The notes beneath the pieces are model-generated. The model did not search any database, was not told the origin of the DNA, and was given only the letters and a program-made list of their open reading frames with translations. Positions 23,283-23,662 of a DNA stretch of 38,217 bases are shown in pieces (within the stretch, counting starts at the first letter, position 1; the number at the start of each line of letters is the position of its first letter). This DNA comes from a virus. The DNA lies in IMG/VR virus record IMGVR_UViG_3300032194_000115, positions 1 through 38,217 of that record; one strand, given 5' to 3'. The translations under genes and the position numbers were made by a program.

Positions 23283-23506
23283 TTATCTATCAGGTTCAGG
23301 CGTATTCAAGTTGCTCCGAAGCTTATTGTAACGTGGGTTTGTCTTGACTTCCTGACTTAACATCTCACTGAGTTCATCACAGCACTGGCACCATTGCTGT
23401 CTAACGTCTGGTGCCCCTAATGCTTTTTTAGAAACAAGCTATACCATTCATGCCACAGTTTGGCACATTCAGCATTCTTCTCATTTAAGTGAGGTTCTCG
23501 ATACAC
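23283..23506 (-). CDS. Small gene in two frames joined by a possible -1 frameshift
   Basis: The first frame starts at GTG 23504-23506 (GAGG 5 nt upstream) and encodes 29 residues to a TAG at 23417 (start YREPHLNEKNAECAKLW, end SLFLKKH). The second frame runs from within the first to TAA 23283, encoding 46 residues (ALGAPDVRQQWCQCCDELSE, end TPEPDR) with no upstream start of its own. They are joined exactly at A AAA AAG (23423-23429), the dnaX-type -1 slippery heptamer. Slippage gives a 74-residue fusion. A 7-bp stem starts 7 nt after the heptamer. The alternative is one missing A in a homopolymer, or decay. Function unknown. Confidence 0.55.
23379..23429 (-). promoter_or_regulatory. Possible -1 frameshift signal: slippery heptamer plus stem/pseudoknot
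   Basis: A AAA AAG lies at 23429-23423, followed by a 7-nt spacer (23422-23416), then GGCACCA (23415-23409), a 15-nt loop, and TGGTGCC (23393-23387), a perfect 7-bp stem. The loop contains ACAGCA (23400-23395), complementary to TGCTGT (23384-23379) just past the stem, which could form a pseudoknot, although the 2-nt connector is short for crossing a 7-bp stem. No internal Shine-Dalgarno-like stimulator is seen upstream. Confidence 0.45.
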
Positions 23507-23662
23507 CTAGTCCTCAGGGCAATTTTCTTCTTCGTAATACATCAATTTTTTTTCAAGACGATCATATTCATCCCACATATATTCTGATCCAGTGTAGTCC
23601 TTGTACATTTCACAGGCACGAATCAACCGTGCAATGTCGTCGGAGTTTAGTCTCATTTCCAT
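23507..23662 (-). CDS. Small acidic hypothetical protein (49-51 aa)
   Basis: The frame starts at ATG 23662, with a second in-frame ATG at 23656, and stops at TAG 23507-23509. The TAG is directly followed by the GTG of the next gene. It begins MEMRLNSDDIARLIRACEMY, continues with tyrosine- and glutamate-rich helix (SEYMWDEYDRLEKKLMYYE), and ends EENCPED. It is soluble, probably coiled-coil. It lies at the head of the petE-PTOX-gnd-zwf island, after a TATAAT element (near 23684). No function is recognised. Confidence 0.6.
   Translation of the reverse strand: MEMRLNSDDIARLIRACEMYKDYTGSEYMWDEYDRLEKKLMYYEEENCPED

Follow-up and report, generated by a model that had tools for sequence, protein, structure and literature searches.

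A conserved slippery heptamer points to programmed -1 ribosomal frameshifting in a small gene of T4-like Synechococcus phages

The window analysed here, the whole 38,217-base stretch of an IMG/VR virus record (IMGVR_UViG_3300032194_000115), carries on its minus strand a small gene split between two reading frames. A GTG at 23506 opens a zero-frame ORF of 29 residues (VYREPHLNEKNAECAKLWHEWYSLFLKKH; 23506-23417), which closes with a TAG at 23419-23417, is a homologue of the N-terminal half of relatives encoded in a single frame and would correspond to their first helix. The gene that precedes it (23662-23507; 51 aa, matching PHROG 5190) ends in a TAG, at 23507, that abuts this GTG, and within the end of that gene, 4 nt before the GTG, lies a Shine-Dalgarno-like GAGGA (23515-23511), a putative initiation signal. 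The following gene is read as petE (plastocyanin; 23262-22939). One codon ahead of its stop, the zero frame passes through the heptamer A AAA AAG (23429-23423; zero-frame codons NNA AAA AAG), where a -1 step opens a further 46 residues (ALGAPDVRQQ...EPDR; 23423-23283), holding the predicted second helix and running to a TAA at 23285-23283. In the window, this -1 frame has no ATG, GTG or TTG between its last upstream stop and the site. Seven nucleotides past the heptamer, the arm GGCACCA (23415-23409) pairs exactly with TGGTGCC (23393-23387). A sequence-only reading of this DNA had described frames that meet in the correct phase at the heptamer, 28 codons joined to a 46-residue second frame lacking its own start, and a perfect 7-bp stem, and each of these elements was found in place, on the minus strand, with the stem folding as described. 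Counting both strands, the window holds 12 A AAA AAG heptamers, of which only this one lies at the end of an ORF of 25 codons or more, has a stop close by and opens onto 40 or more -1 codons free of stops. Farther upstream, a 93-aa gene (23979-23698, minus strand) aligns with the C-terminal end of several PHROGs of far greater length (up to 928 aa; e.g. 727 and 3477), as if a domain that terminates larger phage proteins occurred here as a gene in its own right.

Querying with the fused protein by tblastn returned 56 phage records, Synechococcus phages without exception, many of them matching as two pieces in two frames and others as one piece. Further loci were added by IMG/VR scans, and the gene was located by two small profiles, one per half, at 295 loci in all. 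The C-terminal half lies at exactly 86 nt, equivalent to a -1 shift, in 224 of these (122 distinct), and the halves share one frame, 87 to 102 nt apart, in 70; the one remaining locus has a 12-nt deletion within its first half, and a +1 offset was seen at none of the 295. Frameshift loci belong to T4-like cyanophages (Kyanoviridae) of at least nine genera and include the named phages S-CAM3, S-RSM4, S-H9-1, S-H9-2, S-SM2, S-IOM18, S-M1, S-H25, S-CAM1, Syn19, S-CAM22, S-BM3 and Sf-CH11, while single-frame forms occur in S-SCSM1, S-H68, S-SCSM2R, S-8S56 and SynMITS9220M01. The proposed tblastn check thus came out in favour of a frameshift, the shift site and stem being conserved across many cyanophage genomes. 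Uninterrupted relatives had been named as the finding that would speak against one; they do exist, but they form a separate group with a longer, different junction and no heptamer, and so confirm the fusion as the functional protein. Both halves of the split gene align with these single-frame homologues and, judged by homology, the 28-codon start and the 46-residue -1 continuation are one protein family.

The gene is present in a single copy in the four genomes that were searched whole. Its neighbours include petE in some phages and, in others, zwf and an endonuclease/terminase gene on either side, so that the photosynthesis neighbourhood of the window is incidental. Constraining the frameshift forms to one clade gave a tree that fitted no worse than the unconstrained one (p-AU 0.98), the root not being fixed; the simplest reading would be that the shift was gained once or lost once. 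One scan of a collection of bacterial and archaeal genomes yielded a single relative, L304 (NHGE01000043.1, from a MAG labelled Euryarchaeota archaeon TMED129), which is possibly cyanophage DNA that was binned with a marine MAG; with this single and possibly phage-derived relative, a host origin of the gene was rejected.

For the conservation count of the heptamer, loci L093-L212 were left out, as the scan pattern that found them contained the heptamer. All 70 distinct frameshift loci retrieved by searches whose patterns did not include the whole site motif carry A AAA AAG (in a later recount of these 70 rows, one was unreadable because its contig broke off there), as do all 27 of the strictest set, which combines phage records and the window with a scan that used SQEVKTN and YREPHL as its only keys. 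Over the 77 nt upstream of the site, mean pairwise identity is 70%, with a minimum of 48%. The lysine codons of the site are AAA AAG in each of the 119 distinct loci of full length, preceded in every case by a codon with A in third position (arginine being written CGA in 61); this set takes in loci from the motif-keyed scan, and the unbiased subset gives the same codon result. At the control lysine codons 9-10 of the same gene, AAG AAG (44), AAA AAG (21), AAA AAA (19) and AAG AAA (11) all occur. Seen in one genome only, the loss of one A from the run, either as a real gene-killing mutation or as a sequencing undercall, would look no different locally, and relatives with an intact single frame do exist. 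This explanation, which the sequence-only reading had itself raised, would nevertheless have to place the split at the identical base in 122 distinct sequences that are 48-100% identical upstream of the site and come from many cultured phages, sequenced by different groups, as well as environmental contigs, with both halves conserved throughout and no variation in the spelling of the site. The conservation of split, heptamer, stop and stem in many genomes excludes it for all practical purposes.

The same A run, 6 long in 84 loci and 7 long in 35, could also serve as a substrate for RNA polymerase, which would add or drop an A so that a share of the mRNAs carried the fused frame; polymerase is known to slip on longer runs, such as the 9 A of Thermus dnaX (PMC3711429). 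The runs considered here never exceed 7, always end in G and keep the exact X XXY YYZ phase, and few ribosomal sites in E. coli shift more readily than A_AAA_AAG (PMC5009743). Slippage during transcription would, moreover, have no need of a downstream stem, and we consider it very improbable.

That stem was examined directly, since RNAalifold gave no stable consensus structure on the pooled alignment; Rfam gave no match. Across the 119 sequences, none of the other 2060 candidate six-pair stems does as well as the one spanning positions +8 to +34 from the heptamer, which has 92% of its cells paired and is perfect in 63%; this 6-bp stem starts 8 nt past the heptamer in relatives and 7 nt past it in the window. 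Conserved residues dictate most of its base pairs, and the sole pair that truly changes on both sides is the third (positions 10 and 32), which joins the wobble base of an alanine codon to the first base of a cysteine or glycine codon. Five pair types are found at this position, and the pair forms in 111 of 119 sequences as against 72 in shuffles (maximum 87). A tree-aware covariation test counted few independent changes, mostly on weakly supported branches. Compared with synonymous recodings, the downstream region is predicted to fold more strongly, with a mean z of -0.76 (window, -2.2), the control stretches giving -0.15 and 0.01. Other candidate RNA signals fared less well. The pairing of the loop with a downstream segment (ACAGCA/TGCTGT), part of the initial description, is indeed present in the window but can form in only 2 of 119 relatives, and the best alternative pairing between loop and downstream sequence is complete in at most 20% of them. 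A small alternative hairpin, GCGCC/GGCG, has 60% of its cells paired versus 89% for the main stem. An upstream Shine-Dalgarno stimulator, sought about 10-14 nt before the site, is not conserved; AGGGAG occurs 17 nt upstream of the site in many relatives, unshifted ones included, and the window has CATGAA there.

Just past the heptamer, a zero-frame stop follows one codon on in 113 of 122 distinct loci, the TAG at 23419-23417 of the window being one such case, and is retained in 62 of 70 unbiased loci; the pattern of the heptamer-keyed scan demanded TAGG as well. In the 119-locus set, the -1 codon after GCA is TTA in 80 loci, ATA in 22, CTA in 8, TTG in 8 and GTA in 1, so that an xTA codon, creating the zero-frame stop, is used as the first variable -1 codon in 111 of 119, versus a 26% share of TTA and CTA among leucine codons elsewhere in the gene. 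This biased choice of leucine and isoleucine codons argues for selection on zero-frame termination too, albeit not absolute selection: the stop is missing in about 8% of distinct loci, and the exact short product is thus not essential everywhere. The stop-less minority (among others L083, L254, L263, L289, L291, L294 and L295) reads CATTGG after the site, a change of TTA to TTG that is synonymous in the -1 frame and lengthens the unshifted product by 6 to 20 codons. Several of these loci cluster in Tefnutvirus (S-IOM18, S-M1 and S-H25).

Database annotation treats the gene differently. The -1-frame half corresponds to PHROG 8483, also catalogued as T4-like GC 972 (hypothetical protein), a family that lacks the N-terminal half because annotators called the second frame only, with a probably false start. 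In S-H9-1, S-RSM4, S-H9-2, S-SM2 and Syn19 only this half is annotated as a CDS, and in S-BM3, S-M1, WH25-B and others most of the gene lies under no CDS. These entries embody another explanation, in which the second half is a separate protein begun at its own GTG or ATG in the -1 frame through translational coupling or re-initiation, and most relatives do have such a codon, 15, 11, 8 or 4 codons before the site. Yet in the window, as in 8 further distinct loci, the -1 frame offers no start codon ahead of the site, which rules out ordinary initiation there, and the commonest start, like the GTG and ATG starts that were annotated, is an automatic by-product of a Glu-Trp pair (GAG/GAA TGG) in the zero frame. 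Two proteins would further leave the invariant A AAA AAG and the fixed phase unexplained, and in the sister genes the two halves form one continuous chain. We accordingly give independent initiation only a very slight chance of being correct.

Among 44 aligned single-frame relatives, Y2, E4, H6, L7, K10, C14, W21, R36, W39, C42 and N57 are invariant. The predicted fold of the first single-frame relative (pLDDT 86) consists of a helix at residues 5-26, a turn at 27-31 and a second helix at 32-56. Carried over from this model, the shift site would fall in the turn of the hairpin, so that the unshifted product would be a 29-residue helix 1 and the shifted one a 74-residue helical hairpin. Pfam and NCBIfam gave no match above cut-off, and a Foldseek search of the PDB returned generic helical hairpins only, none with an E-value below 1.

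Taken across independent genomes, the conserved split, the heptamer, the zero-frame stop and the stem strongly support the programmed -1 frameshifting first suggested from the window, and we regard it as very probable that the gene encodes a small two-helix phage protein of about 74 residues by this dnaX-type ribosomal route. Ribosomes would begin at the GTG and translate 28 codons until two tRNA-Lys occupied A AAA AAG, with the stem 7-8 nt downstream slowing them; marine Synechococcus is expected to have a single tRNA-Lys that reads both AAA and AAG. A fraction of the ribosomes would then re-pair one base back, continue in the -1 frame and complete the hairpin, and those that did not slip would halt one codon on, releasing the 29-residue peptide with the first helix only. 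We infer that slippage occurs, at some rate, that both products are made and that the short product or a fixed ratio may have a use. More tentatively, and with less than even confidence, the shift may act as a ratio device for a helical-hairpin effector, the helix-1 peptide having an activity of its own, such as competing with the full hairpin or acting as its dominant-negative partner. On this reading, the selection on the zero-frame TAG would reflect a second product, and the sister phages with a single frame would either have shed such control or never acquired it.

In the full-text literature, subscription journals and preprints being outside its scope, neither this gene nor cyanophage frameshifting turned up in earlier work, and the locus would appear to be a fresh case of an established mechanism. 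It would add an apparently unnoticed, deeply conserved recoding site to some of the ocean's most abundant viruses, and it corrects a database family, PHROG 8483, that holds half a gene. Annotation pipelines missed or halved the gene in most genomes examined. Sister phages that encode the same protein with and without a frameshift also offer a natural comparison of what the shift is worth.

Three features expected of a dnaX-type site are seen here: an in-phase X XXY YYZ heptamer, a conserved split between constrained halves and a stem 5-9 nt downstream. A Shine-Dalgarno stimulator is an accessory of E. coli dnaX that is not obligatory for every -1 site. As with the E. coli gene, which yields tau and gamma, the cyanophage gene combines the heptamer A AAA AAG with a stop shortly after it in one frame and a downstream stem (PMC3711429, PMC5009743). 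The proteins are unrelated, the shift gives the short product in dnaX and the long one in the cyanophage gene, and in the latter no Shine-Dalgarno stimulator is conserved where one would usually be found; the claim is accordingly limited to a site that works like dnaX, as distinct from one that is a dnaX signal. Transposases of the IS1 and IS3 families likewise use A-rich slippery heptamers and fuse a short N-terminal half by -1 into a longer product (PMC5009743), but the cyanophage fusion is a predicted 74-residue helical hairpin, with neither a transposase nor a mobile element. In lambda and its relatives, the G/GT-type tail-assembly chaperone is tail-related and has much larger products, whereas the cyanophage gene is not tail-related and lies beside petE, or zwf and the endonuclease/terminase gene; what the two share is a frameshift, conserved in tailed phages, from which one short and one long protein result (PMC10885494, PMC3711429).
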